Made by a program: the position numbers and the translations under genes. The notes under the pieces were generated by a model. It was given only the letters and a program-made list of their open reading frames with translations. It was not told the origin of the DNA and made no database searches. Below, one piece after another: positions 1 through 32,938 of a stretch of DNA of 34,517 nucleotides. Origin of the DNA: Kutzneria sp. 744 (GTDB lineage: Bacteria > Actinomycetota > Actinomycetes > Mycobacteriales > Pseudonocardiaceae); assembly GCF_000568255.1 (NCBI RefSeq), contig NZ_KK037166.1, forward strand, positions 10,106,680-10,141,196, given 5' to 3'. Each line of letters begins with the position of its first letter. Position 1 is the stretch's first letter.

Positions 1-2
1 CC

Positions 3-305
3 ATCCTCGCGCGCGGCGAGTTCGTGGTGAACCTGTTGCACGAGCACGCCCGGTCCACCGCGGAGCTGTTCGCCTCGGGCGACCCGGACCGGTTCGACCA
101 GGTCGCCTGGTGGTCCGACGGCGAGAGCAGCGGGCCACACCTGCGCCGGGACGCCCACGCGATCGCCGACTGCCGGGTGCTCATGCCGCTGCCGGTCGGC
201 GACCACATGGTGGTGTTCGGCGAGATCGTCCGGGTCAGCACCCGCACGGAGCGGCGCCCGCTGCTGTACGGGCTGCGCCGGTACGGCAAGTGGGCGGTGG
301 CCTGA
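3..305 (+). CDS. Flavin reductase-like protein (FMN-binding split barrel), C-terminal fragment
   Basis: The 5' end of this gene lies outside the window; the open frame runs in from base 3 and ends at a TGA at 303-305. The visible ~100 residues contain a stretch like the middle of flavin:NAD(P)H reductase domains (ARGEFVVNLLHEHAR, then a Phe-Ala-Ser-Gly and an Arg-Phe-Asp segment), followed by a Gly-rich beta-strand region and a terminal YGLRRYGKW. Such proteins supply reduced FMN or FAD to two-component monooxygenases, or act as small flavin oxidoreductases. It is convergent with the PaiB-like gene, with 9 bases between the stops. Family assignment is from motif resemblance. Which oxygenase it serves cannot be seen here, although an LLM-class monooxygenase lies at 21.1 kb. 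Confidence 0.7.
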   Translation: MLARGEFVVNLLHEHARSTAELFASGDPDRFDQVAWWSDGESSGPHLRRDAHAIADCRVLMPLPVGDHMVVFGEIVRVSTRTERRPLLYGLRRYGKWAVA

Positions 306-314
306 GCCACCGCC

Positions 315-956
315 TCACTCGGTCGGGAGCCGGTCCATCAGGCCGGCGACCGCCCGGGTGGCCTCGCAGCCGCCGAACGAGTGCCGGACGCGCCGACGGA
401 TCGCCGGCTGCTGCTCCTGGCTGAGCTTGAACATGCCGTCGGCCTCGGCGACCCGCAGCCGGAACGCCCCGACGCCGGGCAGGATGCGCCGGAAGTAGTC
501 GAGCGAGCCCGTCATGTCCCAGCCCGCGCCGAATCTCGACTCCAGGGCGGCCACCGTGGCCCGCACGGTGGCCAGTGTGTCGTCCGCCGACTCGACCTTG
601 CGCAGCTCGCCGCGCACCTGCACCGAGGTGAAGTTCCAGGTGGGCGCGGCGGGCGCGGTCCGGTAGACGGCGGGGGAGACGTAGGCGTTCGGGCCGGCGA
701 AGGTCGCCACCACGTTCGCGGCCCCGCCCAGCGCGGCCCAGTGCGGGTTGGCCCGGTTCATGTGCCCCCACAGCGTGATCCCGACCAGTCTGTCGACCGG
801 TCCGTCCAGCTCCGGGTCCACGATGATCGGCACGTGGGTGATGTGCGGCGCGGCGCCGCCGGCGCCGTTGCTCGCCAACTGCGCCAGCGGATGACCGCGG
901 ACGAGGTCGACCAGCCACCGGTCCTCGGGCGCGTGGTACGGGCCGGGCACGAACAT
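315..956 (-). CDS. PaiB-family FMN-binding protein (negative transcriptional regulator family)
   Basis: A 213-residue protein of about the usual PaiB length. The N-terminus (MFVPGPYHAPEDRW), the central Pro-Ile-Ile-Val-Asp and GHMNRANPHW segments and the later Tyr-Val-Ser-Pro and Pro-Thr-Trp-Asn-Phe motifs are those of the PaiB/FMN-binding split-barrel family. Members have been described as regulators of sporulation and protease genes in Bacillus, but structurally they are heme/flavin-binding barrels, so a redox role is equally possible. It is the last gene of the operon 6645-315; its ATG lies 9 bases after the thioesterase stop, with a GGGAG four bases upstream of the start. In a biosynthetic operon it could be a flavin-dependent tailoring enzyme or a local regulator. 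The sequence does not decide. Confidence 0.85.
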   Translation of the reverse strand: MFVPGPYHAPEDRWLVDLVRGHPLAQLASNGAGGAAPHITHVPIIVDPELDGPVDRLVGITLWGHMNRANPHWAALGGAANVVATFAGPNAYVSPAVYRTAPAAPTWNFTSVQVRGELRKVESADDTLATVRATVAALESRFGAGWDMTGSLDYFRRILPGVGAFRLRVAEADGMFKLSQEQQPAIRRRVRHSFGGCEATRAVAGLMDRLPTE

Positions 957-965
957 GAGGCTCCC

Positions 966-1736
966 TCAGCCAACGGCGGAACTGGGCGAGTCCACCGATT
1001 CGATGGTCCGCACGACGAGGTCGACCAGTGCGGGCTCCTCCTCGCGCAGGAAAAAGTGCCCGCCCGGATACAGGTGCAGGCCGCGGAAATCCGTCGACTC
1101 GGGCGCCCACGTGCGCATCAGGTCCGGCGGGGTGACCCAGTCCCGCTCGCCCCCCATGGCGATGACCGGCAGGTCGAGCGGTGGCCCGGGTCGGTAGGAG
1201 TAGCTGCGGCAGAGCGCGAAGTCGGCGCGCAGCATCGGCAGCACCGCGCGGAACACGGCCGGGTCGGCCAGTATCTCGTCCGGCACGCCGCCCAGCCTGC
1301 GCACGTCCTCGGCGAACTCCTCCTCGCCGGCGGCGGGATCCGGCATGGTCGTGGCTGCCGCACCGACCGGCGGCCACGACGCGGCGGCCACCAGACGCGG
1401 CAGCGGGCCGCCGGTGCGCACCAGCTCCCTGGTCATCCGGTACGCCAGCAGCGCGCCCATGCTGTGCCCGAAGAACGCGTAGTCCTCGGTGAGGTCGTCC
1501 GCCAACCCGTCCAGCAGCGCCGCCACGGCGGTGTCCGCGTCCGTGAACGCGGGTTCCCGGTGCCGGCCCTGGCGGCCGGGCAGGCGCACCGCGCGCAGTT
1601 CGATCCAGTCCGGCAGCCGAGCGGCCCAGGTCCGGAACATCGAAGCCCCGCCGCCCGCGCAGGGCAGGCAGTACAGCCGCAACCGGGCGTCCGGCCGCGG
1701 CTCGAAGGCCAGGTACCACGAGCGTGACAACACCAT
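966..1736 (-). CDS. Type II thioesterase (alpha/beta hydrolase) for NRPS/PKS editing or release
   Basis: This 256-residue alpha/beta hydrolase begins with the N-terminal pattern of type II thioesterases (LYCLPCAGGGASMFRTW) and carries the nucleophile elbow GHSMGA with Ser92. A conserved Asp follows in a GGERDWVTP-like segment, and the catalytic His is in PGGHFFL near the C-terminus. Such enzymes hydrolyse misprimed or finished acyl groups from carrier proteins. Here it is the fourth gene of the operon headed by a free-standing A-PCP protein, so it could release the modified amino acid from that carrier, as CmaT does in coronamic acid biosynthesis, or proofread it. The ATG at 1736 follows the dehydrogenase stop by 40 bases. 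A Shine-Dalgarno-like GGGAG lies rather far upstream, so a start a codon or so later is possible. Confidence 0.9.
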   Translation of the reverse strand: MVLSRSWYLAFEPRPDARLRLYCLPCAGGGASMFRTWAARLPDWIELRAVRLPGRQGRHREPAFTDADTAVAALLDGLADDLTEDYAFFGHSMGALLAYRMTRELVRTGGPLPRLVAAASWPPVGAAATTMPDPAAGEEEFAEDVRRLGGVPDEILADPAVFRAVLPMLRADFALCRSYSYRPGPPLDLPVIAMGGERDWVTPPDLMRTWAPESTDFRGLHLYPGGHFFLREEEPALVDLVVRTIESVDSPSSAVG

Positions 1737-1776
1737 TTTTCCGACGCGCTTTCTCCCTGGACCGGACCCGAGCCGG

Positions 1777-2934
1777 TCAGATCAGCGAATGACTGATGAT
1801 CTCCTTCATCACCTCGGTCGTGCCGCCGTAGATGGTCTGCACGCGCGTGTCCAGGTACGCGCGGGCCACCACGGACTCGCGCACGAACCCGTACCCGCCG
1901 TGCAGCTGCAGGCACTGGGTGACGACCTGCTGGCACAGCTCGGTGTTCCACCACTTCACCATCGCGGCGTCCTCCGCGCTCAACCGCCGATCGTTGTACG
2001 CGAGGATCGCTCGGTCGCAGTGGCTGCGCGCGACCTCGACCGCGGTGGCGAGCTCGGCCAGGTGATGGCGGTTGCTCTGGTGCTGCCCGACGGCCATCCC
2101 GAACACCGAGCGTTTGCCCACGTACTCCAGGGTTTCGGCGAGCACCCGCTCGGCCGCCGCCAGCGCGGAGATCCCGATCCACATGCGTTCCTGGACCAGG
2201 TTGCGCATGAGATAGCCGAACGCCCGCCCCGGACGGCCCAGCAGATTCCTCGCCGGCACGGCCACGTCGTCGAAGAACAGCTCGCTGGTGTCCAGGGCCT
2301 TCATGCCGATCTTGTCGATCAGCCGGCCGCGTTTGACCCCGGCCCGGTCGGCCTCGACCACCAGCATGCTGGCCGAGGTGCCGCGCGCGGGCGCGGCCGT
2401 TCGCGTGTCGGTCGGGGTCAGCGCGACGACGAGATACAGGTCCGCGCTGTGCCCGTTGGAGACGAACGTCTTGCTGCCGTTGAGCTGCCAGCCGCCGTCC
2501 CGCCCGACGGCGGTGGTGCGCATGGCGCTGATGTCGCTGCCCGCGTCCGGCTCGGTGATGGCCAGCGCCGTGACCAGGTCCCCGGAGCAGAACCCGGGCA
2601 GCCAGCGTCGTTGCTGCTCGGCCGTGGCCAGCGTGCGCAGGTAGGAGCCGACGATCTCGTTGTGCAGCGGCAGACACGGCGCGTACGTGCCGGCCCGCGC
2701 CAGCTCCTCGGACAGGATCGCCTGGAACCGGTAGTCGTCGCTGCCCCCGCCGCCGTGCTCCGCCGGCATGTCGATGCCGAGCAGGCCGGCCGCGCCGGCG
2801 GCCCGCCACACCTCGCGGTCGGCCACGCCGCGCCGTTCCCACGCCGCGTAGTGGGGAGCGATCCGCCGGGCGATGAACGTGCGCACCAGCTCGCGGAAAT
2901 CGCGGTGCTCGTCGGCCAGGATCTCCTCGCGCAT
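1777..2934 (-). CDS. Acyl-CoA dehydrogenase family flavoprotein, probably acting on a carrier-bound acyl or aminoacyl group
   Basis: A 385-residue protein with the complete acyl-CoA dehydrogenase fold: an N-terminal helical domain, the flavin-binding segment with ITEPDAGSD, a middle beta domain, and a C-terminal helical domain with LHGGYGF and IYGGTTEVMKEI. The usual catalytic Glu of the medium-chain YEGT motif is a Gly here (YGGT). The alternative base used by long-chain/isovaleryl-type enzymes is present as Glu249 in a VQERMW segment. ATG 2934 is preferred over GTG 2937 because a GGGGGA lies five bases upstream. It starts 13 bases after the radical SAM stop and is cotranscribed with an A-PCP, so dehydrogenation of an aminoacyl-PCP is inferred, as with prolyl-PCP oxidases. 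An ordinary acyl-CoA substrate cannot be excluded. Confidence 0.9.
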   Translation of the reverse strand: MREEILADEHRDFRELVRTFIARRIAPHYAAWERRGVADREVWRAAGAAGLLGIDMPAEHGGGGSDDYRFQAILSEELARAGTYAPCLPLHNEIVGSYLRTLATAEQQRRWLPGFCSGDLVTALAITEPDAGSDISAMRTTAVGRDGGWQLNGSKTFVSNGHSADLYLVVALTPTDTRTAAPARGTSASMLVVEADRAGVKRGRLIDKIGMKALDTSELFFDDVAVPARNLLGRPGRAFGYLMRNLVQERMWIGISALAAAERVLAETLEYVGKRSVFGMAVGQHQSNRHHLAELATAVEVARSHCDRAILAYNDRRLSAEDAAMVKWWNTELCQQVVTQCLQLHGGYGFVRESVVARAYLDTRVQTIYGGTTEVMKEIISHSLI

Positions 2935-2947
2935 CACTGTCCCCCGG

Positions 2948-4855
2948 TCACCCGGCGACGGGTCGGGCCGGCTCGGCGACCCGCCACTGCGGCAGGATGT
3001 CGCGCATCCTGTTCATCATCGCCTGGCAGTACGAGGCGTTGTGGTCGAGGTCGCGGTGCCGCGGATACGGCATCTTGCGCCGGCCGCGGTGGTCGATGAC
3101 CATGCTCGCCCGGTCGCCGTCCGGCGTGTGCTCCACCCCGATCCACTCCGCCGCCGCCCGCGGCGCGTCCACCGTGACGTGGTAGCGGCCGTGGTCGGTC
3201 ACCGCGACCTCGTCCAGCGCGACGTCCGGCAGGCTCAGCGGTTCGCGGTAGACGTAGGGCCGGGCGAGCAGGTCGATCTCGAAGATCGCCCGCAGCAGCG
3301 GATCCTCCCGCCACCGTGGCAGCGAGCGGACGTAGTCGCGCAGCAGCCGGTCCACTTCGGCGCGGTGCGAGTGCATCACCATGTGCAGCACCTTGCCGAC
3401 GTTGTTGATGTCGTAGTTGTCCAGCGTGGCGATGGAACGGGCGAGGAAGGCGCAGAGCTCGGTGTCGGCGTGCGCGCGGAACCAGCGCGCCACGTTCTCC
3501 AGGAACGTCTCGTGATCCTGGTCGCCGACCGAGTCCAGGTAGCGCGCGGTGTAGTAGGCGCCGCGCGCGTTGTAGGCCACGACGACCGCGTAGTAGAACC
3601 ACAGCCCCAGCTCGTAGTCCTGTCGGTTCACCCACTTGGTCTCCACGACCACGTCCGCCTCGGAGACGGTGTCGTTCACGCGGACCTTCTTGATGCCGAG
3701 CACCTCGGCCTGCCGTTCCATCGGCGTGTTGGGCAGCAGCAGCTGCGGGTAGGTGACCACCACGTCCGCGCCGATCCGGCACAGCTTGCCGATGCCCTCG
3801 CGGAACGAGTCCAGGGTCTCCCCGGGCAGCGGCCAGATCAGCTCGGTGTAGGAGCTGATCTCCTTCTCGTGCAGCTTCTGCTGCAGCTCGACGTAGGTCG
3901 ACTCCTTGATGTTCGACCGGTCGACCATGGCCAGGGTGGCCGGGCTGACGGTCTGCAGCGACACCGGCTGGCTGGTCAGCATGCCGCCGGCCACCAGGAT
4001 CTCGGTGATGTCGGTGACCCGGTCCGGGCGGTTCTTGGCCGCCTGCATGCTGACCATCATCGGATAGCCGTTGCGCTGCTTGCACTCCACCAGATGCCGG
4101 GTCAGCTCCACGTCCCTCGGCAGCGCGCCCCAGTTGGCGTCGGCCAGGAAGATGCTCTCGACGCCGTGCTCGGACAGCCACGTCAGGTCGTCCCGGACCC
4201 GGGTCAGCTCCCACCGGTGCACCTTGTCGTTGGTGGCCGCGCCCCAGTAGCAGTAGCTGCACCGGAACGGGCACCCGCGGTTGGTCTCGACCACGGCGAA
4301 GGCGTAGTCCGCGCCGTCGAACACGCCCGCGGCGAAAGGCGAGGGAATCTCGTCGAGATCCTTGATGCGGTCGGGTGCGGGCGTGGTGACCAGCGTGCCG
4401 TCACGCCAGAAGCTGATGCCGGGCACCCGGGCGAGATCCGGGTCCTCGCCGAGCAGCTCGCGCAGGTACTCGGAGAAGATGATCTCGCCCTCCGAGTCGG
4501 CGACGACGACGTCGGTCATGCTCGCGTCGATGTACTCGGTGATCCGGTTCATCACCTGCGGGCCGCCGAGGATGAACCGGGCCGACGGCCGGGCCTCGCG
4601 CAGCGCGGCCAGCACCACGCTGATCCGGCGCATGTTCCACAGGTAGCAGCTCATCGCGTAGACCTCGCAGTCCAGCTCGACGAGCTCGCGGATCAGCTCC
4701 CGCTCGGGATGCGACACCGCCCGGGAGTGGATCACGAAGGAGTACTCCTCGGCGATCCGCGGGTCCTGCTGGGCGTACGCCTGCAGATAACCGGAGGCCA
4801 GCGGCAGGGTGTTCGGATACAGCGGCACCTCGACCAGCGCGACGGACCTGCTCAT
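2948..4855 (-). CDS. Cobalamin-binding-domain radical SAM enzyme
   Basis: A 635-residue protein. Residues 1-160 resemble a B12-binding Rossmann domain (LGGPQV near residue 97 after an alternating hydrophobic strand). The radical SAM cluster motif CPFRCSYC follows at Cys195, Cys199 and Cys202, giving the canonical CX3CX2C, directly followed by YWG. The TIM-barrel part extends to about residue 420, followed by a ~200-residue C-terminal region of the kind seen in B12 radical SAM proteins. Such enzymes methylate unactivated carbons or rearrange carbon skeletons using SAM and cobalamin. The start ATG overlaps the A-PCP stop in an ATGA, so the two are translationally coupled, and the dehydrogenase follows directly. 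The likely substrate is the amino acid on the neighbouring PCP or a product of it. Methyl transfer versus another radical reaction cannot be told from sequence alone. Confidence 0.9.
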   Translation of the reverse strand: MSRSVALVEVPLYPNTLPLASGYLQAYAQQDPRIAEEYSFVIHSRAVSHPERELIRELVELDCEVYAMSCYLWNMRRISVVLAALREARPSARFILGGPQVMNRITEYIDASMTDVVVADSEGEIIFSEYLRELLGEDPDLARVPGISFWRDGTLVTTPAPDRIKDLDEIPSPFAAGVFDGADYAFAVVETNRGCPFRCSYCYWGAATNDKVHRWELTRVRDDLTWLSEHGVESIFLADANWGALPRDVELTRHLVECKQRNGYPMMVSMQAAKNRPDRVTDITEILVAGGMLTSQPVSLQTVSPATLAMVDRSNIKESTYVELQQKLHEKEISSYTELIWPLPGETLDSFREGIGKLCRIGADVVVTYPQLLLPNTPMERQAEVLGIKKVRVNDTVSEADVVVETKWVNRQDYELGLWFYYAVVVAYNARGAYYTARYLDSVGDQDHETFLENVARWFRAHADTELCAFLARSIATLDNYDINNVGKVLHMVMHSHRAEVDRLLRDYVRSLPRWREDPLLRAIFEIDLLARPYVYREPLSLPDVALDEVAVTDHGRYHVTVDAPRAAAEWIGVEHTPDGDRASMVIDHRGRRKMPYPRHRDLDHNASYCQAMMNRMRDILPQWRVAEPARPVAG

Positions 4856-6645
4856 CGGCCCTCACGCCCCGTTCGCGTCGCGATGGACTCCAGCAGTGAC
4901 TGGGCCAGCTCGTGCAGGATGTCGGTCTCGAAGAAGTCCTCGGCCACCAGCCGCACACCCCGTCGGCGTGCCTCCGCCGCGGCGCGCATCGCCAGGATGG
5001 AGTCGCCGCCGAGATCGAAGAAGCTGTCGGCCCGGCCCACCGCGGCCAGGCCGAGCACCTTGGCCCACACCTCGGCCAGCACCCGCTCGACGTCGTTGCG
5101 GAAGCCGCCGTTCTGCTCGGTCGGTTGGTCCAGCGGCCGGGCCGCGAGCGCGGGCCGGTCGGTCTTGCCGTGCGGGGTCAGCGGAAGCGCGTCCAGCCGC
5201 ACCAGGGGATGCGGGAGCAGATAGCTCGGCACCGCGGCGGCCAGCAGCTTCCCGAGGTGCTCGGAGTCCGAGCCGTCGCCCGCGCCGGTCCAGTAGCCGA
5301 CCAGCCGTCGGAGGGGGGCGCCGTCCTGGCCGGGCGTCTCGTGCACGACGACGGCGGCGCCGGTGACACCGGGCAGTTCGAGCATGGCCGCCTCGATCTC
5401 CCCAGGTTCTATCCGGAAACCGCGCAGCTTGATCTGGCTGTCGTTGCGGCCGAGGAATTCCAATTGCCCGTCGGGGCGTCGACGCACGATGTCACCGGTC
5501 GCGTACATACGTTCTCGCGGGTGCTCCGTATCGGGAAGGAACTTGCGTTCGGTCAGCTCGGGGCGATTGAGGTAGCCGCGGGCGACCTGGATTCCGGACA
5601 GGTGCAGTTCGCCCGATTCCCCGTCCGGGACCGGCCGGCGATTCTCGTCCAGGACATGGGCCCGCAATCCGGGCAGCGGAGAACCGATCGGCGGCGGCGT
5701 GTCCGCAGGCGCGTCCGCGGTGATTTCGCCGCAGGTGGCCAGCATTGTCGTCTCGGTGGGGCCGTACACGTTGTAGAGCGCGAATTTCGGGCGGATCCGC
5801 GGCGGCGCGTGCAGCTTCTCGCCGCCGAGCAGCATCGCCCGGAAAACGCCGTCCCGCGGCCACCGGGCATCGAGCAGCTGCGTGGCCAGCACGGTGGTGA
5901 AGAACCCGACCGTGATGCGTTCGTCCCGCAGCCAGTCAACCATGTCCTGTGGGGATTCCGGCAGCCGGTTGTCCGCGAGGCACAGGGTGGCGCCGCCGGC
6001 CAGGCAGGGCCAGACCTCCAGCCCCCAGCCGTCGAACGAGGGCCGGGCCATGGTCGGCATCCGGTCGCCGGGTCGGACAGCGAACTTCTCGATGTGCCAG
6101 GCGACCAGCTCGGCCACGCCGCGGTGCTCGACGAGCACGCCCTTCGGCGCGCCGGTGGAACCCGAGGTGAACGTGACGTAGCAGAGGTCGTCGGGCGCGC
6201 CGCCCGGGCCGTCCGGCTCCTCGACCGACTCGTCCGCGACGAGGTCCTCGACGAAGACGGCCGTGCCGTGGCCGGCCGGCAGGCTGCCCGCGAGCCGCCG
6301 CGTGGTCAGCACCACCGGCGCCGCGCAGTCGGCGAGGATCTGGGCGACCCGCCCGGGCGGATCCTGCACGTCCATCCCGACGTAGGCGCCGCCGGCCAGC
6401 AGCGCGCCGAGGGCGGCGACCACCAGCTCCGGCGACCGCTCCAGCCACAGCGGGACGAGGACGTCGCGTGTCACCCCCGCCCGGCGCAGCTTCCCGGCGA
6501 CGCGTCGCGCCGACCGGTGCAGCTCGTCATAGGTGATGACGCGCCCACCGCTGTCGATCGCGGGTTGATCGGGACGGCGTTCGCGCCAATCGGCTATTCG
6601 ATCGAGCAGCGGCCTGGCCATCCCAACAGATGTGTCTTCGCGCAT
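4852..6645 (-). CDS. Stand-alone NRPS adenylation-carrier didomain (A-PCP)
   Basis: A 597-residue protein. The adenylation domain spans about residues 12-490: YVTFTSGSTGAPKG (A3), NVYGPTETT (A5), YATGD (A7), GRNDSQIKLRGFRIEPGEIE (A8) and the A10 lysine in PHGKTDR. A carrier domain follows at about 515-590 with phosphopantetheine Ser549 in LGGDSI. There is no C or TE domain. Aligning by eye to GrsA gives the specificity residues D-G-L-F-L-G-V-M. The nearest signature I remember is the isoleucine type (DGFFLGVV); the dedicated prolyl signature (DLLYLALV) fits less well. It therefore probably loads an aliphatic amino acid onto its own carrier for the radical SAM and dehydrogenase enzymes encoded next. 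It is the first gene of the operon and divergent from the cyclodeaminase gene. GGAAGG 12 bases upstream of the ATG is the only visible Shine-Dalgarno. Confidence 0.9.
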   Translation of the reverse strand: MREDTSVGMARPLLDRIADWRERRPDQPAIDSGGRVITYDELHRSARRVAGKLRRAGVTRDVLVPLWLERSPELVVAALGALLAGGAYVGMDVQDPPGRVAQILADCAAPVVLTTRRLAGSLPAGHGTAVFVEDLVADESVEEPDGPGGAPDDLCYVTFTSGSTGAPKGVLVEHRGVAELVAWHIEKFAVRPGDRMPTMARPSFDGWGLEVWPCLAGGATLCLADNRLPESPQDMVDWLRDERITVGFFTTVLATQLLDARWPRDGVFRAMLLGGEKLHAPPRIRPKFALYNVYGPTETTMLATCGEITADAPADTPPPIGSPLPGLRAHVLDENRRPVPDGESGELHLSGIQVARGYLNRPELTERKFLPDTEHPRERMYATGDIVRRRPDGQLEFLGRNDSQIKLRGFRIEPGEIEAAMLELPGVTGAAVVVHETPGQDGAPLRRLVGYWTGAGDGSDSEHLGKLLAAAVPSYLLPHPLVRLDALPLTPHGKTDRPALAARPLDQPTEQNGGFRNDVERVLAEVWAKVLGLAAVGRADSFFDLGGDSILAMRAAAEARRRGVRLVAEDFFETDILHELAQSLLESIATRTGREGR

Positions 6646-6678
6646 AAGACAGGCTGACCTTCCACGAGCAGGATATCT

Positions 6679-6700
6679 GTCCTCCTCGGTGAGGAAGGAC
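6679..6700. promoter_or_regulatory. Imperfect inverted repeat in the A-PCP/cyclodeaminase divergent promoter region
   Basis: The left arm GTCCTCCTC and right arm GAGGAAGGAC are exact complements except for one bulged base, separated by GGT. It lies 34 bases upstream of the A-PCP start and about 140 bases upstream of the cyclodeaminase start. It could be an operator controlling both directions or a 5' leader hairpin of the A-PCP transcript. No regulator is assigned. Confidence 0.45.
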
Positions 6701-6717
6701 GGACTCGGGACGACACG

Positions 6718-6727
6718 CGAATATTCG
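6718..6727. promoter_or_regulatory. 10-bp palindrome CGAATATTCG
   Basis: A perfect AT-centred palindrome in a GC-rich divergent intergenic region, between the inverted repeat at 6679 and a TTGACG at 6782-6787 that could be a -35 element for the cyclodeaminase gene. The -10 region is weak by eye. It is possibly an operator half-site. Confidence 0.3.
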
Positions 6728-6838
6728 TGACGCTACTCGACCCGGCCGCGCACGGTCAATGTCGCCGGTGCGGCGGGGAACTTGACGTGTTGTCCGGTCG
6801 GCAAACACTGTTGAAGTATTCCCGATCGGAGGTATGTG

Positions 6839-7825
6839 ATGCTGGTTTTGGATGCCGCCGCGATTCGTGAGTTGTTCCCCATGAAAGAATCCATCGAGCT
6901 GATGCGTTCCGCGCTGGTCGCCTTCAGTTCGGCGCGGGCCCTCGTGCCGCAGCGCCTCATGCTGCGAATCCCGGGCGGCGACGCCTACGCCGTGATGCCC
7001 GGTTATGCCGCGCCGTCGCCGGACGTGCCGCACGGCGGTTTCGGCATCAAGGTGATCGCCATCAAGCCGGACAACCCGAGCCGCGGCCTGCCGGTGAACT
7101 CCGGGCTGGTGCTGGCCTTCGACGAGCTGACCGGACGCCCCGACGCCGTGCTCGACGGCGCGACCATCACCGAGATCCGCACGGCCGCCGTGTCCGGCGT
7201 GGCCACCGACCTGTTGGCTCGTCCGGACGCCGCCACGCTGGCCATCCTCGGCGCCGGCGTCCAGGCCCGCAGCCACCTGGAGGCGATGGCCGCGGTGCGG
7301 CCGCTGCGCGGCGCGCGCATCTGGTCCCGCACCGAGGAACGGGCCCGCGCACTCGCCGAATCCGCCCAGGACTACCCGTTCCCGGTGAGCGTGGCCTCGT
7401 CCGTCGCCGAGGCCACCGACGGCGCCGACATCATCTGCACCGTGACCGGCAGCGTCGAGCCCGTCCTGCGGGATCGGGACGTCCCGGCCGGCGCGCACGT
7501 CAACGCCGTCGGCTCGTCCTTCCCCGACAAGCGCGAGCTCACCGAGGAGCTCGTCGCGCGCTGCTCGGTCTTCGTCGACAGCCGGTCCTCCGCGCTGGCG
7601 GAGGCCGGCGAGCTGGTCATCCCGATCGGCCGCGGCGCCTTCGGCCCCGAGGTGGTCCTGGCCGAGATCGGCGAGCTGCTGCTCGGCCGGTCGGCGGGCC
7701 GGCGCGGTCCCGACGAGACCACCCTGTTCAAATCCCTCGGCCTGGCTGTCGAGGACACCCTGTCGGCCTCCTTCATCGCCCACCGGGCCCGCCACCGCGG
7801 CGTCGGTCAGGAGGTGTCGTTCTGA
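6839..7825 (+). CDS. Ornithine cyclodeaminase / mu-crystallin family protein
   Basis: A 328-residue protein of the usual family length. It shows the N-terminal substrate-binding part with an active-site Lys in GFGIKVIAIKPDN, the Rossmann dinucleotide motif LGAGVQARSHL at about residue 139, and a later Asp in FVDSRSSALAEAGEL. Characterised relatives convert L-ornithine to L-proline with NAD recycling, or act as NAD(P)-dependent imine reductases or alanine dehydrogenases. It is the only gene of its direction before the 1-kb gap, divergent from the A-PCP operon, and could supply proline or a cyclic imine to the pathway. ATG 6839 is chosen over GTG 6836 because GGAGG at 6828-6832 is then six bases away. 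Confidence 0.88.
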   Translation: MLVLDAAAIRELFPMKESIELMRSALVAFSSARALVPQRLMLRIPGGDAYAVMPGYAAPSPDVPHGGFGIKVIAIKPDNPSRGLPVNSGLVLAFDELTGRPDAVLDGATITEIRTAAVSGVATDLLARPDAATLAILGAGVQARSHLEAMAAVRPLRGARIWSRTEERARALAESAQDYPFPVSVASSVAEATDGADIICTVTGSVEPVLRDRDVPAGAHVNAVGSSFPDKRELTEELVARCSVFVDSRSSALAEAGELVIPIGRGAFGPEVVLAEIGELLLGRSAGRRGPDETTLFKSLGLAVEDTLSASFIAHRARHRGVGQEVSF

Positions 7826-7836
7826 CCGTGGGTGAT

Positions 7837-7852
7837 GTCCCGTCAACGGGAC
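7837..7852 (+). terminator. Hairpin 11 bases after the cyclodeaminase stop
   Basis: GTCCCG-TCAA-CGGGAC forms a 6-bp perfect stem with a four-base loop. There is no T-run after it, which is common for actinomycete terminators. The position suggests transcription termination of the cyclodeaminase gene. Confidence 0.5.
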
Positions 7853-8682
7853 GGAACCAACTCCGCCAGACCCGCTCCACCGAGCGGGCCATGCCCTTGC
7901 TTCCCGATCTTCGTCCGGCGTCGGCGCTTCGCGCCGCCGGTGCGGGAGAGGGCCCCTGACCTGCGGCGATTGTTGTCACAGCAACCGACGGCCGCTGCCC
8001 GAAAGGGCAGTGTGACCGTTCCGACGTCTTGCGGATCCACGTTCGCCTTGTGCTGGCGGGCGGCATGTGCAGCGGCGCGCCGGTGATCCGCCCGCGCCCG
8101 GCCGCCGGGCACGACGACGACCGCACGCTCACGGGAAAGGAGGTCGACCCGCCCCGCTCGTCGCCCCGGGCCGGGGCACCCGAGCGTGATGGCTGCCGCG
8201 CGCTCGCCGTGCGGGGTAGCCGCGCGCATGTCGCGCCCGATGGAAGCAGAGGCGGGATGATGGGTCGCGTGAGCTCGATCGCGACCGTCGCCGGCGTGGA
8301 CCTTTCTAGTGCCGCGCAGGTGTTCCGCCTGTGCCGGGACACCCATGACCACACCGGCGGCCGTATGTCCGGGGACGCCGCCGCGCGCGGTGCTGCCTTG
8401 TTCGCTGCCGGCTCGTCCTTCGCTGCCTTGTCCTCCGCGGGAGAAAACAAGATCCAATGTGGTTCGGGACGATCCTGTCTACCGCCAAGATCACCAACAT
8501 GACGGCGCCGGAACGCACGTTCGGGTCATGGACCAGCAGGCCGGGACCCGTTATGGGCGGCCGGGACGAGCCCGCTGGCCCGAAGACGGAGCGGGGGGCG
8601 CCGACCGGCGGCGAAGCCTCCCCAGATCGTCCCCGTCACCAGCAAAAACGTACCTGAGGTTCGCCCAGGTTTGGCCGGAGCG

Positions 8683-8704
8683 CGGGCATCGGCGCCGATG
8701 CCCG
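8683..8704. promoter_or_regulatory. Perfect 22-bp palindrome upstream of the LmbU-type regulator gene
   Basis: The half-site CGGGCATCGGC is followed directly by its exact reverse complement with no spacer. It lies about 155-185 bases before the regulator gene. A perfect 22-bp symmetry fits a dimeric repressor or activator site, or the stem of a leader hairpin. Its core CGGCGCCG is similar in character to the short GC palindrome I remember being reported as a LmbU site in the lincomycin cluster, so autoregulation is possible. Confidence 0.5.
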
Positions 8705-8813
8705 ATCCGCGCGGTGGTCCCGGAATATCGTCTTCGGGTGGCGTGACCTATTGGCCTCGCGAAACAGTCACATTTACACTCCGGGCAACTGCGAATCGCT
8801 ACTGGACAGCTAC

Positions 8814-8828
8814 CTAGGGTTGTCCTAG
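8814..8828. promoter_or_regulatory. Inverted repeat CTAGG-N5-CCTAG just upstream of the LmbU-type gene
   Basis: Arms CTAGG and CCTAG flank GTTGT, 30-45 bases before the possible starts. CTAG is rare in high-GC actinomycete DNA, which makes the element stand out. A TTTACA at 8773-8778 could be a -35 element. The same ACCTAGG heptamer recurs at 11632-11638. Confidence 0.4.
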
Positions 8829-8870
8829 CATCGACCTCAAGGTTCCGACCCAGGGGGGATGGGTAGGGGG

Positions 8871-9581
8871 ATGACTGTCTCGAACAGTGTTTCGTACTCG
8901 GCTTCGGCCATGGTTCGTGATCGGCACGCCGGGGCGCGGCCACCTCAACAGCGGCATCCGTCAGATGAAAGAATCCTCACCACTAAAAACGGCCTGCACA
9001 TTCCGGAAGGCCTTTCCTTCAGCGAGTGGAAGGTCGCCGGCAGGCGGCTGTCCGGAATTCTTGACTCCTCTTGCTGGTGGCTCGGTGACTGGCTGGTTTT
9101 CGGCAAGGAACAATATTCCGACCGGTATCAGCGCGGTGTTGAGGCCGTCAACCTCAGTTATCAGACCTTACGAAACTACGCCTGGGTTGCCCGGCGTTTC
9201 CCGTTGGAGCGCCGACGTGCGCAGCTGTCCTTCCAGCACCACTCCGAGATCGCCTCGCTGCCGGACGACGAGCAGGAACAGTGGCTCGACGAGGCCGAGG
9301 CGCGCAGCTGGACGACGAAGCAACTGCGCAGCGCCGTTCGCATGGCCCAGCACAACGGATTATCCGAAGGCGACGCGAGCATGAAACAGCTCGCGGTGCC
9401 CGGCAGCCGGGTCAAATGCTGGCGTCAGGCGGCCGAACGCGCGGGTGTCGCCTTCGAGCAGTGGGTGCTCTCGACGCTCGACCACGCCGCCGAATTGGAA
9501 CTGGACTCCGAAAGCGGACCGCCTGACACCCAGCTCGGCAACGGCGGGGAAGAGGATGGTTATGCGGATCGCACTGGTTAA
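8871..9581 (+). CDS. LmbU-family transcriptional regulator
   Basis: About 236 residues. The central part carries the family hallmarks: LHIPEGLSFSEWKVAGRRLSG, then CWWLGDWLVFG, then a Tyr-Gln-Thr-Leu-Arg-Asn-Tyr-Ala-Trp-Val-Ala-Arg-Arg-Phe segment typical of the DNA-binding region. LmbU is the pathway activator of the lincomycin cluster, and homologues sit in many actinomycete antibiotic clusters. This gene ends inside the radical SAM gene (20-base overlap), so the two are coupled. It contains two in-frame TTA codons (9168-9170 and 9360-9362), which would make translation dependent on the bldA tRNA where that control exists. The start is uncertain: ATG 8859 and ATG 8871 are both in frame, each directly preceded by a G-run and neither ideally spaced. 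Confidence 0.9.
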   Translation: MTVSNSVSYSASAMVRDRHAGARPPQQRHPSDERILTTKNGLHIPEGLSFSEWKVAGRRLSGILDSSCWWLGDWLVFGKEQYSDRYQRGVEAVNLSYQTLRNYAWVARRFPLERRRAQLSFQHHSEIASLPDDEQEQWLDEAEARSWTTKQLRSAVRMAQHNGLSEGDASMKQLAVPGSRVKCWRQAAERAGVAFEQWVLSTLDHAAELELDSESGPPDTQLGNGGEEDGYADRTG

Positions 9582-11478
9582 CATGCCGTTCGCCGACTGG
9601 GATCGCCCATCGGTGGCACTGAGTCAGCTCGCCGCATATGTGAATCATGAGTTCGGTGACGCCGTCGAGACCGATGTGCGCTACATCAACCTTGATTTCG
9701 CGTTGCTCTTCGGCGCCGGCGACTACAAGATCTTCGTGAACCAGTCCGAACACCTCATCGCCGGTGTCGGCGAATGGCTGTTCCGTGCGCTGGCCTTTCC
9801 CGATGTCCCCGACAACGCCGACAGCTACTTCGGGCGCTACTTCGCCGACGACGGCTCCGCTGGCTTTCGGGCCCGGTTGATGCAGGTCAGGGGCCGGCTG
9901 AGGGACTTCTGCGGCAAGATGATCGACGACTACCGGCTGGCCGAGGCCGATATCGTCGGGTTCACGTCGATGTTCTCGCAGAACATCGCCAGCATCGCCC
10001 TCGCGCGGATGATCAAAGAGCGCAACCCGAACGTCATCACGGTCATGGGCGGCGCCAACTGTGAGACTCCCATGGGCACGGTGCTCGCCGAGTACATGCC
10101 GGCGCTCGACTTCATCTTCTCCGGTCCCGCCCTGCACAGCTTCCCGGAATTCGTCCGCTGCGTGCTCGACGGCAAGCCCGAGTCGGCCGACGACATCCCG
10201 GGCATCATCTCGCGGCGCAACGTCAACAGGCCCGGCATCCGGGAGTCCATGGGCCGGGACCGCGATATCGACGACTATGTGCGGCCGGAGTTCAGCGGCT
10301 TCGTCGACAAGTTCAAGCAGTGCGAGGACGAATTACGTGCGACCGCCGGTTCGGCGTCGCCGAGGCTCTACTTCGAGACCTCGCGCGGATGTTGGTGGGG
10401 TGAGAAATCGCACTGCACGTTCTGTGGTCTCAACGGCCTCGGTATCGGATATCGCGCCATGGAGCCCGAGAAGGCGCTCGCGCAGTTCGAGTGGCTCTTC
10501 GAGTACGCGCCCTGGTGCAAGTCCTTTCACTGCACGGACAACATCCTGCCCAGGAACTACATGCGCGAGGTGCTGCCGAATATGCGCCCGCCGGCGGACG
10601 TCTCGGTGTTCTACGAAGTCAAGGTGCCGATCTCGGACCGGGATTTCAAGTCGATGGCGCAGGCCGGAGTTCGCATCGTGCAGCCGGGCATCGAAGCGCT
10701 GGCCACCTCGACGCTCAAGCTGATGGCCAAGGGCACGACGTCGTTCCTCAACCTCCAGTTCCTCCAGAAGTGCCTCAAGTACGACGTCGAGCCGAGCTGG
10801 AACCTGCTGATGGGATTTCCGGGGGAAGAGGCGGAGGTCTTCGAGAAATACGTGACCGATCTTCCCTCGTTGACGCACCTGCCGCCGCCCGACGGTGCCT
10901 TCCTTGTCCGCTTCGACCGGTACAGCCCCTACTTCAACAAGGCCGCGGAATTCGGGCTCGATCTGGCGCCGCTGGAGTTCTACCGCCTTGCCTATCCGGT
11001 CGTGCCCGACGAGAGGCTTTTCGATCTGGCGTACTTCTTCGTCGACGACAATCTGGGGCCCTACCAGGTGCACTCCGCCGAGTGGCTCGGCAAGGTCGAG
11101 CTCCAGGTCCGGAGCTGGCGGGCGGCCTGGCAGCGGGACACGCCACCGCGGCTGGCCCTGCTCACCGACGACGCCGGCGAGCTGGGTGTGCTGGACACGA
11201 GGTTCGAGCAGCACCGGTGGACCCCGGTCCAGGAGGACGGCGCGGCCCTGCTGCGCCGGCTCGCCTCGCCGAGCCGGTCGAGCAAGCTGGTCACGGAGCT
11301 GGGCATTTCCGCCGAGCGGCTGGCCGAGCTGGTCACCGAGTTCACCGAACGGAGGTTCCTCTTCCTGGAGGGCGACACCATGATCAGCCTCGTCATGCTG
11401 GACGAGGTGACCGACGACGGCCCGGACGAGCCGGTCGAGGTCGCGGCCCCGCGACTGCTTCCCCTCGTGCAGGTCTGA
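9562..11478 (+). CDS. Cobalamin-dependent radical SAM enzyme of the RiPP-maturation C-methyltransferase type
   Basis: A 638-residue protein. The N-terminal ~230 residues form a B12-binding-like domain (ALVNMPF start, then MGGANCE at about residue 162). The cluster motif reads SRGCWWGEKSHCTFCGLNG, so Cys277, Cys285 and Cys288 form a CX7CX2C instead of the canonical CX3CX2C. This expanded motif with WWG and GLNG is that of the radical SAM proteins annotated as RiPP maturation radical SAM protein 1, which are B12-dependent methylases of peptides. The C-terminal ~100 residues look like a small winged-helix-like extension (SSKLVTELGISAERLAELV). ATG 9562 is preferred over ATG 9556 because GAGG at 9552-9555 is then six bases away. 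A TTA codon lies at 10333-10335. No convincing precursor peptide is adjacent, so the substrate may be an NRPS intermediate. Confidence 0.9.
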   Translation: MRIALVNMPFADWDRPSVALSQLAAYVNHEFGDAVETDVRYINLDFALLFGAGDYKIFVNQSEHLIAGVGEWLFRALAFPDVPDNADSYFGRYFADDGSAGFRARLMQVRGRLRDFCGKMIDDYRLAEADIVGFTSMFSQNIASIALARMIKERNPNVITVMGGANCETPMGTVLAEYMPALDFIFSGPALHSFPEFVRCVLDGKPESADDIPGIISRRNVNRPGIRESMGRDRDIDDYVRPEFSGFVDKFKQCEDELRATAGSASPRLYFETSRGCWWGEKSHCTFCGLNGLGIGYRAMEPEKALAQFEWLFEYAPWCKSFHCTDNILPRNYMREVLPNMRPPADVSVFYEVKVPISDRDFKSMAQAGVRIVQPGIEALATSTLKLMAKGTTSFLNLQFLQKCLKYDVEPSWNLLMGFPGEEAEVFEKYVTDLPSLTHLPPPDGAFLVRFDRYSPYFNKAAEFGLDLAPLEFYRLAYPVVPDERLFDLAYFFVDDNLGPYQVHSAEWLGKVELQVRSWRAAWQRDTPPRLALLTDDAGELGVLDTRFEQHRWTPVQEDGAALLRRLASPSRSSKLVTELGISAERLAELVTEFTERRFLFLEGDTMISLVMLDEVTDDGPDEPVEVAAPRLLPLVQV

Positions 11479-11714: not shown

Positions 11715-14700
11715 TCAGCGGACGTCGGCGCGGAGCAGGAAGCGCGACATCACGGCGGCGACCGACCGGGCATGCGGGGCCCGCAGCAGACCGTCGTGCG
11801 TCGCCGGCACCTTCGCCTCGTCCAGGCCGACCGGCACGCACTGCTGCCACTCCTCGGGGCGCACATCGCTCGACCCGCCGCCGGCGGTCGCCCTGATCAG
11901 CAACGCCGGACAGGGGAGCACCCCGGGTTCGGGCCAGTCGAGCGTGCGCATCGCGGCGTAGTACTCGAACGGTCCGCGCAGGCTGCCGTCCAACAGGTCC
12001 AGCTGGGACTGTCGGAGCAGGCGGTCGCCGTGCGCCAGGATGTCCGCCTCCGTGGCCCCCTCCAGCTCGAACTTCTCGGCGCTCCACCGCTGGGCCGCGT
12101 CCGGGAACGCGTCGGCGACGGCGGACAGGAACGAGCCGAGGAGTTCCTCGCGGCTCCCGATCAGCAGGTCGGTGAGTCCGATCGGGGCGGGGGAGTCGAG
12201 CAGGGTGAGGCTGCGCACCTCGTGCCCCCGTCGCACCAGCGCGTCGGCGAGATGGAAGCCGAGCGTGCCTCCGACGCTGTGTCCCGCGAGGTGGACCGGG
12301 CCCGGGCAGGACGCGGTGACGGCCCGCACGCAGTCGTCGAGCAGCGTGCTCAGGGTCAGTCCGGCGCCGTGGGCCTCGACCATCTCCCGCACCGGCAGCC
12401 CGAAACAGGGGCGGTCGGTGAGATACGCGGCGACCTGCGCGAACGACGATTCGAGGCCGAGACCGCCGGGCAGCGCGACGACGGCCGGGGCAGTGCTGGC
12501 GCTGGACCGCAACGGGAACAGGGCCGTCGGCGCGGGCGAGGCGGAGGTGGCGTCGTCGAGCCCCGGTGCGCCGGACAGCAGCGTGCCGCGTGCGTCCGGG
12601 CGGGCGGTCACCTCGGCGATCAGCCGCTCGAAGTCGGTGGCCAGCCCCTCGATCGTCTCGTCGTGGAAGAGATCGGTGTTGTACGTCCAGCGGAACGTGA
12701 CGCGGCCGCCGGTTTCGAACACCTCCAGATGCAGGTCCATCTTGGCGGTGTCCTCGACGACGCTGAGGCTGGTCGCCTCGATCTCGTCGAGCTCCAGCGT
12801 CACGGGCTCGTTGTTCTGCACGATGATCATGATCTGGAACAGCGGCATCGCCGCCGAGCTGCGCCGCGGGTTGAGCCGCTTGACCACCACGTCGAAGGGC
12901 ACGTGCTGGTGCTCGAGATCGTCGAGCGTGTCGCCGCGGACCCGGCCGAGCAGTTCCTGGAACGACTCGTCCGCGCGCACGGTGATCCGGCTGACCAGGG
13001 TGTTGACGAACATGCCGATCAGCTCGTCGAGCTCGGCGAACGGGCGGTTGGCCACCGCGGAGCCGAACGCGACGTCCGGCGCCGCCCCGCGCCGGACGAG
13101 CAGCACGGCGAGCGCCGCCTCCATCACCATGAACAGCGTGGTGTTCTGCTCCTGGCACAGCCGCCGCAGCCGGTCGGCCGCGTCGTCGGCGAGGACGACC
13201 TCGGTGGCCGCGCCCCGATAGGTCATCTGCTCGGGCCGCGGCTTGTCGGGCGGCAGCGGCGAGGCCTCGGGCAGCCCGTCCAGCCGCCGGATCCAGTAGC
13301 CGATGTCCGTCTCGGCCTCGGCCGAGGCCAGCCACTCCTGCACGCTGTGGGCGTAGTCGGGATAGCCGTAGCGCAGCGGGGCGAGCGGCGACTCGCCGCC
13401 GGGATTGTCGCGGAAGTGCTGGTAGAGGAGCTTGAGCTCGCGGCTGAGCACCGCGATCGACCAGCCGTCCGCCGCGATGTGGTGCATCGTCAGCATCACC
13501 GCGGCGAGCCCGGGCACGACCCGGACCAGACGCGCGCGCAGCATCAGGTCCTCGCGCAGGTCGAAGCGCCGGTCGGTCTCGGCGGCGGACAGCGCCACCA
13601 GGGCCTGCCGCCACGTGCTGCCGGCCGGGATGACCAGATCCTCCCGGGGCAGCCGGAAGCCGAGGTGCGGCCGGACCTGCGAGCGGTGCCGACCGTTGCT
13701 CACGTTCACCACGGTCCGCAGCGGGGCGTGCCGCGCCACCACGACGTCGAAGGCGCGTTCCAGCGCGGCCTCGTCGAGCGGCCCGTCCAGGATCACCGTG
13801 GTGTGCAGGTGATAGGCGGTCATGCCCTTGGCCAGCCGGTCGATGAAGTACAGGCGCGACTGCGGATCGGTCAGCGGCGGGTTGTCCGGATCCGGCGCCA
13901 TCAGCGGAACCAGGGCGCGCGGGTTGCCGCGGCTCGACCCGTGCGCGCCCGCGTCCTTACGTCCGGCGCGGACGAGCGTCGACAGGCCGCGCACGGTCGG
14001 GTCGCGGAAGAACTCGCGCAGCGTCACGTGCACACCGAGGTCCGACTCCACGTGCGCGAGCAGCCGGGTGACCAACAGGGAATGGCCGCCCGCGGTGAAG
14101 AAGTCCGTGCCCGGCGTCACCTCGTTGTTGTGCAGCAGGCTCTTGACCATGGTCAGCAGCTGCGCCTCGACATCGCCCGCACCGGCCTCGACACCGTCGT
14201 CCGGGACCGCCAGCACCGGTTCGGGCAGGGCGCGCTGGTCGAGCTTGCCGTGATCGGTCAGCGGCAGGTCCGCGAGGAACACGAAGGCGCGCGGAATCAT
14301 GTACTCCGGAAACGACTCGGCCAGCGCGGCCCGCAAGGTCTCGGCCGCGAGGTCGGCGTCGGCCGGGACCACGTAGGCCACCAGGCTCATGCCGATGTCG
14401 GGCACGTCGCGGCCGACCACCGCCGCCTTCCTCACCTGGTCGAGCGCGCTGAGCACCGCCTCGACCTCGCCCGGCTCGACCCGGTACCCCCTGATCTTGA
14501 CCTGGTCGTCGTTGCGGCCGCGGAACTCGTACTCGCCGCCGGCGGTCAGCACCGCCAGGTCGCCGGTCCGGTATCCGCGCCGCCGTCCGCCGGTCGCGGT
14601 GGGCACCTCGACGAAGCGGTCCTGCGTCAACTCCGCGCGGCCGGCGTAGCCGAGAGCCACCGAAGGGCCGGTGATCACGATCTCGCCCGGTGTGCCGGCG

Positions 14701-15815: not shown

Positions 15816-15948
15816 CGGGATTCTGCCTCCTAACCGTGGTCGGCTCGGGCGATCGGCGCGGGATGATCGATCGGCACGCCGAACGCGCGCCGCCCGGCCC
15901 GGCGGGGGCGCCGCGCGCGCCCACTCCGCCATCCTGACTTCCGTACCA

Positions 15949-32456: not shown

Positions 32457-32909
32457 CGGCCTATCACCTCAAGGCGTCACCGCCCCATCGTAGGGTCTGC
32501 CGGCACACGTTCTCAAGGAAACGGACCATTCGCGCAGAGATGGTCACGAAACATCGTGTTAAACCTGTCCACCGCTGCGGCCGGATACCGGGACGGCCGG
32601 TCGGTCACTGCGCCGATCGGTGCCGTCGCGGGGCCGCCGCGGTGCCACCGTTCCCATTCGGGTGCGAATGAATCCTTCCCGTCTGCCGACGACGCGCGGC
32701 CGACCGACCCGGCGAACCCGGGCTGTGCAACGAAAATGCGCGGAACGGTGATATGGGGCGGTCCGTCGGAGGGTGACCTCACCGAGGTTTCCCGGCCCGA
32801 TGGATGTGACCTGCGCCGCTTCGCGACGAACGCCGCGGGTGGGGGCGTCACCGATACCGGGCGTCGAAGTGGGACAATTCCTGTCCGGCCGGCCGAACGA
32901 ATCGCGCTC

Positions 32910-32938
32910 CGGTCATTGTCGATATCGCGGAATGACCG
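32910..32938. promoter_or_regulatory. Hyphenated palindrome CGGTCATT-N13-AATGACCG
   Basis: Eight-base arms are exact complements, and the 13-base centre contains the palindrome CGATATCG on nearly the same axis. It lies 207-235 bases upstream of the aminodehydroquinate synthase start. The double symmetry fits an operator for a dimeric regulator. Confidence 0.5.

Follow-up and report, generated by a model that had tools for sequence, protein, structure and literature searches.

The three tightly packed genes for an A-PCP didomain, a cobalamin radical SAM enzyme (B12-rSAM) and an acyl-CoA-dehydrogenase-like (ACAD-like) flavoenzyme that we describe here in Kutzneria sp. 744 form, as is strongly supported, a part of the kutzneride gene cluster. 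This cassette is quite possibly a so far unassigned component of the pathway, one that uses a carrier of its own to build 2-(1-methylcyclopropyl)glycine (MecPG); MecPG is found in the kutznerides according to the accessible part of a review (PMC4147253). The identity of the product is read from the genes and their neighborhood and could well be MecPG, and the chemical route that we outline below for its formation is a more doubtful proposal.

Organization of the cassette

The window, that is, the entire stretch of 34,517 nucleotides that was analyzed, comes from one contig and lies where the kutzneride cluster ends on the right. A preliminary description of this DNA had proposed a unit of A-PCP, B12-rSAM and ACAD genes followed by a type II thioesterase gene, an arrangement that the reading frames and Pfam matches confirm (Table 1). 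The ATGA overlap of the A-PCP and rSAM genes is indeed present (four bases), and the reported gap of 13 bases ahead of the ACAD gene is right for an ATG start at 2934; it shrinks to 10 bases if the GTG at 2937 is used. Third-position GC amounts to 0.88-0.96 in the four cassette genes, as it does in real genes of this DNA. While the cassette thus proved real, the gene set had been drawn too narrowly, omitting both ktzT and the divergently oriented gene of the ornithine cyclodeaminase/mu-crystallin (OCD) family.

Table 1. Features of the cassette and its surroundings (positions in the window)
Feature	Position	Strand	Evidence
A-PCP didomain, 597 aa	4852..6645	-	Pfam AMP-binding, AMP-binding_C, PP-binding
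Cobalamin radical SAM (B12-rSAM), CysS-like, 635 aa	2948..4855	-	Pfam Radical_SAM, above cut-off; CysS match
ACAD-like flavoenzyme, 386 aa	1777..2937	-	Pfam, all three ACAD domains
Type II thioesterase, GHSMG	966..1736	-	Pfam Thioesterase
KtzT, piperazate synthase, final gene of apparent operon	315..956	-	PDB 9jn4/5/6 match
OCD family protein, divergent from A-PCP	6836..7825	+	Pfam OCD_Mu_crystall
Flavin reductase-like gene, cut by contig edge	24..305	+	Pfam Flavin_Reduct, only profile 59-152 of 153
LmbU-family regulator	8859..9581	+	NCBIfam, above cut-off
Second, different B12 rSAM, near cassette	9445-11478

Placement in the kutzneride cluster

The start of KtzT lies nine bases past the thioesterase gene on the same strand, and the cassette and ktzT appear to share one operon. 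KtzT differs from the protein in PDB entries 9jn4/5/6 at a single position, residue 197; 9JN5 is named KtzT in PMC13274692, which also mentions a KtzT C197 variant. About 11 kb to the left of the window, KtzI is identical to PDB 4TLX over residues 3-424 (422 residues). The left flank further contains two Trp halogenases (locus L010), and the flavin reductase-like gene, by its position after these, is probably KtzS. The LmbU-family regulator possibly belongs to the same cluster; homologues of it are found near KtzT homologues in loci L061, L063, and L064. Two terminator-like matches were found, one of them inside the thioesterase gene, ahead of ktzT and on the same strand, a number equal to that given by shuffled sequences (2.0); this counts against MecPG as the product.

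The amino acid that the cassette makes had initially been viewed as a free-standing new compound, a view that its position next to ktzT in the kutzneride cluster does not support. Because the cassette abuts ktzT, a residue of the kutznerides, either MecPG or the tert-butyl hydroxy acid (DMB), is a more likely product than an unknown one.

The presence in the same cluster of a KtzA/KtzB/KtzD-type set, to which reviews attribute the kutzneride cyclopropane, also counts against MecPG as the cassette product, and a gene for a PhyH-type protein (non-haem iron halogenase) is present elsewhere in the ktz cluster; no such halogenase was found among the reading frames and Pfam matches of the cassette itself. 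That KtzA/KtzB/KtzC/KtzD make MecPG after all, with the cassette merely assisting or being a relic, is in our estimate highly improbable. The KtzA-KtzB-like pair is intact in the genome of Kutzneria sp. 744, the accessible part of one review assigns a KtzB/KtzN/KtzC set to MecPG (PMC4147253), and the formation of the kutzneride cyclopropane is said to start with the halogenation of isoleucine in the portion available of another review (PMC8407142). However, the building block that KtzD is credited with setting up is allocoronamic acid rather than MecPG in the available text of PMC12615548, and the reading frames of the cassette are open and its catalytic residues conserved. The accessible portions of PMC6271018, PMC4052310, PMC6864650, PMC8407142, and PMC9866976 do not mention that a B12 rSAM takes part in making kutznerides, nor did a term search of PMC10888640 yield a hit; the cassette is missing from the list of stand-alone kutzneride parts in the available section of one review.

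Occurrence in other actinomycetes

A genome-neighborhood search for A-PCP, B12-rSAM and ACAD triplets, the check advised in the preliminary description, retrieved the trio in the same order from 12 other actinomycete genomes (13 in all), with Streptosporangium, Microbispora and Streptomyces among the genera; hence, the cassette is not a chance arrangement. All 13 A domains possess a code of the branched-aliphatic type, D(A/G)LFLG. The thioesterase gene, previously taken as part of the unit, directly follows the ACAD gene in eight of the trios and in this part of the family is a member of the set. An OCD homologue is present in only 5/13 trios, in the four outside Kutzneria sp. 744 directly after the ACAD gene, and the OCD protein of the window is 45-55% identical to the trio OCDs versus 30-36% to its own paralogues.

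The cassette also turns up in clusters with nothing to mark them as kutzneride clusters, five of which have the more leucine-like codes DALFLGNVVK or DALFLGNAVK; both observations count against MecPG. Homologues of the two PhyH-type proteins of the cluster were not listed in the 12 other trio neighborhoods, which span 20-40 kb each (E 1e-15 or 1e-12). At E 1e-70, eight other genomes of the family have KtzA homologues, and the trio is absent from all eight, so that the KtzA set and the cassette travel independently. This distribution, together with the 12 further genomes and the right half of the window, where an NRPS with a Thr-like code lies among genes lacking an evident kutzneride role, would suit a cassette whose dehydro or C-methyl branched amino acid ends up outside the kutznerides or in a minor congener, and whose place beside ktzT reflects a cluster fusion. 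We regard this as rather unlikely, given that KtzT ends the same apparent operon.

At six loci, the gene for a related rSAM adjoins an A domain but an ACAD is missing; five of their codes are proline-like. A rule by which the ACAD accompanies branched codes and its absence proline codes holds for 13/13 trios and for 5/6 of these loci, a count that covers 6 of the 19 non-trio genomes. We rejected it because it is broken by genome G799, where an A-T, rSAM and thioesterase set combines a Val-like code (DAVVLGGTLK) with no ACAD within 18 kb. Among the other 13, the rSAM contig of G610 carries an ACAD-like gene (30% identity) that does not adjoin the rSAM gene, locus L066 has an A domain with an Asn-like code 1.5 kb away, and in the others the stretch inspected shows no A domain next to the rSAM or is only 3-5 kb long. 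The idea that the trio rSAMs form one clade was likewise dropped: two label changes are required on the tree, which includes nine of the trios (9/13), and a single change suffices in only 2% of 200 bootstrap trees, although the well-supported branches alone would still permit it.

Predicted properties of the cassette enzymes

Alignment to GrsA yielded the A-domain code DGLFLGVMLK. It reproduces the specificity residues D-G-L-F-L-G-V-M noted earlier, and its branched-aliphatic type supports the aliphatic substrate suggested at that time. As a predicted specificity, this code is compatible with Ile, Val or Leu alike and cannot separate them; it argues against proline.

The ACAD-like protein belongs to the acyl-CoA dehydrogenase family by its three domains and its catalytic Glu: Glu250 of helix G aligns with the same Glu in LCAD, and a Gly occupies the site of MCAD Glu376. 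The helix-G Glu is kept in all nine cassette ACADs (9/13) that were aligned alongside KtzA-like proteins and the paralogues of Kutzneria sp. 744. Against the NCBIfam model of RedW-type prolyl-PCP dehydrogenases, the protein scores 184.9 bits, far from the cut-off of 650; it is 32% identical to the KtzA-like protein of the same organism.

The rSAM matches CysS (9n1b) over residues 3-630 with 518 bits. It shares with CysS/KedN5-like methylases the CxxxCxxC motif (C195-x3-C199-x2-C202, invariant in the five trio proteins aligned), a cobalamin domain whose Pfam B12-binding score of 29.1 bits is slightly below the cut-off of 32.1, and a Trp under the cobalt (W73, at the site of CysS Trp75), retained in the nine trio proteins aligned. 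Its score of 336.5 bits lies below the NCBIfam cut-off for KedN5 (700 bits). In contrast to CysS, which iteratively methylates an aryl methoxy group, the cassette enzyme lacks the gating and SAM-binding residues W271, H371, F485, D607, and H617. Reading a loss of methylation from these changes is not diagnostic because the methylase TokK also lacks W271 and H371; the aligned part of TokK ends before F485, D607, and H617. No residue that separates a methylase from an isomerase was found in the rSAM alignment. CysS, an enzyme of cystobactamid biosynthesis, and with it TokK and KedN5 resemble the cassette enzyme in their full-length homology and in a substrate that is, for the cassette presumably, bound to a carrier or pantetheine; CysS works on pantetheine-bound substrates according to the available part of PMC12846815.

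Since CysS and TokK, the closest characterized and structurally solved relatives, are methylases, methylation is the default expectation. Valine would then be loaded and methylated at C-beta by the rSAM, the thioesterase would free tert-leucine, and the OCD-family protein or another enzyme would convert it to the keto acid from which the tert-butyl hydroxy acid derives, the ACAD playing a side role. DscE, a B12 rSAM assayed as a late C-methylase of the nonribosomal, t-leucine-containing discodermins, provides a precedent in the accessible part of PMC12858407; the gene set of G799, with its Val-like code and no ACAD, and, in the left flank, an A domain with a KR-PCP unit behind it, an arrangement suited to an alpha-hydroxy acid, fit as well. 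Yet tert-leucine has no beta hydrogen, which would leave without a task the ACAD that all 13 trios retain, and the second B12 rSAM nearby could perform this task. We therefore consider such a C-methylation cassette unlikely.

Discussion

Our analysis supports the earlier idea of an on-carrier unit for amino acid tailoring, for which dehydro-, C-methyl- and rearranged products all remain chemically feasible. KtzA/KtzB/KtzC/KtzD, together with the coronamate enzymes CmaA-E, are among the closest known systems. The Ktz set resembles the cassette in its carrier-bound aliphatic amino acid, its separate A and carrier functions, and its ACAD-like flavoenzyme, and departs from it in employing a non-haem iron halogenase instead of a B12 rSAM. 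The methylpyrrole set CloN3-CloN6, like the cassette, combines A, PCP, ACAD, and B12 rSAM proteins; this set and the RedW-type prolyl-PCP dehydrogenase act on proline, to which the cassette code is not suited. The preliminary judgment that neither CmaA/CmaT nor CloN3-N6 provides a match consequently stands. In the norcoronamic acid route of Orf29/Orf30, a B12 rSAM likewise contributes to a cyclopropyl amino acid; however, SAM itself is methylated there before a PLP enzyme closes the ring, and the accessible part of PMC7277169 describes this two-gene route without a carrier or an ACAD.

For the formation of MecPG by the cassette, we envisage that the A-PCP would load an amino acid with a branched aliphatic side chain, in the simplest case L-isoleucine. 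Glu250 of the ACAD might then abstract the alpha proton, turning Ile-S-PCP into 2,3-dehydroisoleucine-S-PCP, from whose delta methyl group the CysS-like rSAM would take a hydrogen. The resulting homoallyl radical could close onto C-beta in a 3-exo fashion, and the stabilized C-alpha radical would be quenched, or oxidized to an imine that might be reduced by an OCD-family reductase, giving MecPG-S-PCP. The thioesterase is proposed to release MecPG for loading onto the main synthetase. As MecPG and dehydroisoleucine are isomers (both C6H11NO2), an ACAD paired with an isomerizing radical enzyme balances exactly. A variant that begins with Val, adds one methyl group from methylcobalamin and removes two hydrogens would arrive at the same product, with an identical formula. 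We advance the halogen-free isomerization, in which no methyl group is transferred, with considerable reservation.

With KtzD/KtzA reportedly giving a different amino acid, the cassette is a direct candidate for the source of MecPG. If the proposed isomerization is correct, ring closure independent of methylation would add a new reaction to the repertoire of CysS-like enzymes and would explain the origin of MecPG in the kutznerides. The trio, present in 13 actinomycete genomes, would then represent a reusable enzyme set for the halogen-free synthesis of aliphatic amino acids that are strained or quaternary, and it would serve as a marker for new peptides that carry such residues.

A tailoring cassette next to ktzT of the kutzneride cluster

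The A-PCP, the CysS-like B12 radical SAM enzyme (rSAM) and the acyl-CoA-dehydrogenase-like protein (ACAD) had been viewed in the preliminary description as an on-carrier amino-acid tailoring unit; its placing of the three genes and the thioesterase is borne out by gene calls and a domain search, and the cassette, a real one, turns out to be better placed than could then be known, running into ktzT. Because of the gene spacing, the cassette through ktzT appears to be, and likely is, one operon. Our consensus scan found two terminator-like sites in positions 1-8900, where shuffled sequences gave 2.0; the site at 1074-1059 (minus strand) falls within the thioesterase gene and so precedes ktzT.

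Genes of the cassette and its surroundings (window positions; L010, left flank; L011, beyond the right end; L172, a locus of genome G799)
Feature	Position	Strand	Remark
A-PCP	6645-4852	minus	4-base overlap with rSAM
rSAM	4855-2948	minus	between A-PCP and ACAD
ACAD	start 2937 (GTG) or 2934 (ATG)	minus	10 or 13 bases after rSAM
Thioesterase	1736-966	minus	40 bases after ACAD
KtzT gene	956-315	minus	only 9 bases after thioesterase
Ornithine cyclodeaminase (OCD)/mu-crystallin family gene	start 6836	divergent	190 bases from A-PCP start
Second B12 radical SAM, other family	9445-11478	plus	507 bits with the RiPP C-methylase model TIGR03975, above its cut-off
NRPS, unusual order A-PCP-C-TE	11715-15932	minus	code DFWNLGIVI (first nine letters)
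AroB-like gene	32773-34206	plus	in the window
Class-II DAHP synthase gene	L011:653-3802	plus	past the cassette, right side
KtzI gene	L010:7721-8995		some 11 kb outside the window
rSAM, A-T, thioesterase	L172:5574-10165		Val-like code, no ACAD

The protein encoded at 956-315 equals PDB chain 9jn4 but for residue 197. This chain shares its sequence entry with 9JN5, which is KtzT of kutzneride biosynthesis according to the available part of PMC13274692, where a KtzT C197 variant is also mentioned. In the left flank, one protein aligns with KtzI (PDB 4tlx) at residues 3-424, and the alignment as printed is free of differences; the flank also contains two genes each of the tryptophan-halogenase and TauD families, a P450, an isolated A domain, another A domain with a KR-PCP unit after it, NRPS modules, a KtzA/KtzB-like pair and PhyH-family genes. 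Besides KtzT and KtzI, the ktz names used here are putative, assigned by family and place. The genome (11,646,492 bases) is one scaffold with N gaps in both flanks, and the window, spanning exactly from gap to gap, almost surely represents a single contig in which the kutzneride cluster reaches its right-hand edge; we regard the cassette as a member of this cluster with high confidence.

The stand-alone NRPS parts named in the accessible text of PMC4147253 are KtzB, KtzN and KtzC, together with a single type II thioesterase, KtzF; that list includes neither the A-PCP nor the thioesterase of the cassette. No report joining a B12 or radical SAM enzyme with kutzneride was found in the literature searched, which excluded most subscription journals; judged by titles, PMC7277169 was the only paper found there on a B12 radical SAM enzyme and a cyclopropane.

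Conservation of the trio

Relatives of the rSAM with at least 38% identity occur in at least 32 genomes (16 from the family search, Kutzneria included; at least 11 more from a second search, and 5 more from a third). Among the matches listed, 13 of them carry the trio in the same order: Kutzneria, G499, G621, G471 and G615 within the Pseudonocardiaceae, Streptosporangium sandarakinum (L058), Microbispora siamensis (L059, which at 100% identity is also G1045), Actinobacteria bacterium OK074 (L062), Streptomyces sp. NRRL F-5727 (L067), and genomes G903, G1053, G1069 and G1114. None was seen among the matches listed in the other 19, six of which are covered by 3-5 kb only. Three pairs are near-copies at the DNA level (L058/G1069, 98.6%; G1053/G1114, 97.5%; G621/G471, 92.8%). 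The set is rare: matches came from 1 of 396 genomes of a phylum draw (E 1e-60) and 7 of 394 of a class draw (E 1e-100), Kutzneria included in both, and from 47 of 390 family genomes at 1e-30, in 31 of which no match exceeded about 40% identity. An rSAM tree that included nine of the trios placed these in two well-supported groups, of four and five, requiring two label changes; a single trio origin appeared in 2% of its bootstrap trees. As far as could be checked, the cassette is a rare, conserved set without assignment so far.

A thioesterase directly follows the ACAD gene in 8 of the 13 trios (window, G499, L058, L059, G903, G1053, G1069, G1114) and an OCD homologue in four (G471, G621, G615, L067). 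Five trios have an OCD gene in all, divergent in the window, where its protein is 45-55% identical to the trio OCDs versus 30-36% to paralogues of its own genome.

Substrate code

A-domain codes were read against GrsA. They are DGLFLGVMLK in the window and G499, DALFLGLVVK in L058, L059, G903, G1053, G1069 and G1114, DALFLGNVVK in G621, G471, G615 and L067, and DALFLGNAVK in L062; close codes are those for Ile (DGFFLGVVYK) and Leu (DAWFLGNVVK). By comparison with such codes, which do not separate Ile, Val and Leu, all 13 trios therefore read as branched-aliphatic in type. Among six loci with an rSAM next to an A domain and no ACAD, five (L055, L060, L061, L063, L064) have DVQFN(A/G)HMVK, which we take to be proline-like, and the sixth (G799) has the Val-like DAVVLGGTLK. 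Judged by these two sets of codes, the ACAD goes with a branched substrate, G799 being the one counter-example on the ACAD-less side. The KtzB-like protein of the kutzneride cluster has DAFFLGMTFK.

Those five proline-code loci consist of A-T, CysS-like rSAM and thioesterase genes, joined in L061, L063 and L064 by homologues of KtzT (57-58%) and LmbU (52-59%); possibly such sets C-methylate carrier-bound proline in piperazate peptides. The L172 set is a possible tert-leucine cassette. A 53-kb contig of genome G610 (contig 51; L051/L052) has three genes for CysS-like rSAMs, of which two stand in tandem, a TIGR03975-type relative adjoining an A-PCP-like gene, an ACAD-like gene and A domains, one with the presumably Val-like code DAFWLGGTF.

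In the window, the second radical SAM gene overlaps an LmbU gene, has relatives at 50-53% in seven other family genomes, G610 among them, and may be what builds the tert-butyl residue of kutznerides. The NRPS gene, whose code we take to be Thr-like, has no evident kutzneride role, and the AroB-like and DAHP synthase genes suggest that aromatic precursors are made by a separate pathway encoded on the right side.

The two tailoring enzymes

The full length of the rSAM can be aligned with CysS. PMC12846815, in its available part, describes complexes of CysS with pantetheine-tailed substrates, in which Trp75 lies under the cobalt; the equivalent of Trp75 is kept in all rows aligned, and other CysS residues named there are not kept in the cassette rSAM. 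Since two of these are also absent from the aligned part of TokK, they have no power to tell methylase from isomerase, and we rejected the differences as such a sign. In the ACAD, the helix-G Glu (Glu250) is kept in nine of nine aligned sequences (of 13 cassette ACADs), and Gly stands at the place of MCAD Glu376. Its best solved relatives are LCAD and 2pg0, presumably a Geobacillus-type ACAD. The window protein is 51-65% identical to the other eight cassette ACADs, 44% to an LCAD-like paralogue in its own genome and 32% to the KtzA-like protein; by these identities it is no close relative of KtzA, and by the RedW profile result it is not a prolyl-PCP dehydrogenase of that type.

Relation to KtzA-D and proposed product

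KtzA homologues (E 1e-70) occur in 9 of 390 family genomes, Kutzneria included, and five of the other eight have a KtzB-like gene (4-kb stretch each). None of these eight is a family trio genome: the cassette is INDEPENDENCE from KtzA-D, and of the family genomes covered by the search, Kutzneria alone therefore has both sets.

One residue of the kutznerides is 2-(1-methylcyclopropyl)-D-glycine (PMC4147253). In the accessible part of PMC12615548, isoleucine bound as a thioester is the reported substrate of KtzD, and KtzD/KtzA are credited with allocoronamic acid, whose ring is placed differently from that of 2-(1-methylcyclopropyl)glycine (MecPG).

In the route that we propose, the cassette ACAD would desaturate Ile-S-PCP to dehydroisoleucine-S-PCP; dehydroisoleucine and MecPG are isomers. 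A 5'-deoxyadenosyl radical would then generate a delta-carbon radical, a homoallyl radical closing on C-beta; the resulting C-alpha radical would be stabilised by nitrogen and thioester, and its quenching would give MecPG. Were it oxidised instead, an imine would form that the OCD-family reductase could reduce, a speculative account of this gene. Such a radical isomerisation, with no methyl transfer, strikes us as rather unlikely. MecPG may also arise from valine by gain of one methyl group and loss of two hydrogens, which leads to the same formula. From an rSAM of this family one would by default expect methylation, and a methylase acting by itself would give a tert-leucine-type product, but the ACAD would then be idle. 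By whichever route, we tentatively propose, at somewhat less than even chances, that the cassette makes the MecPG residue of the kutznerides.
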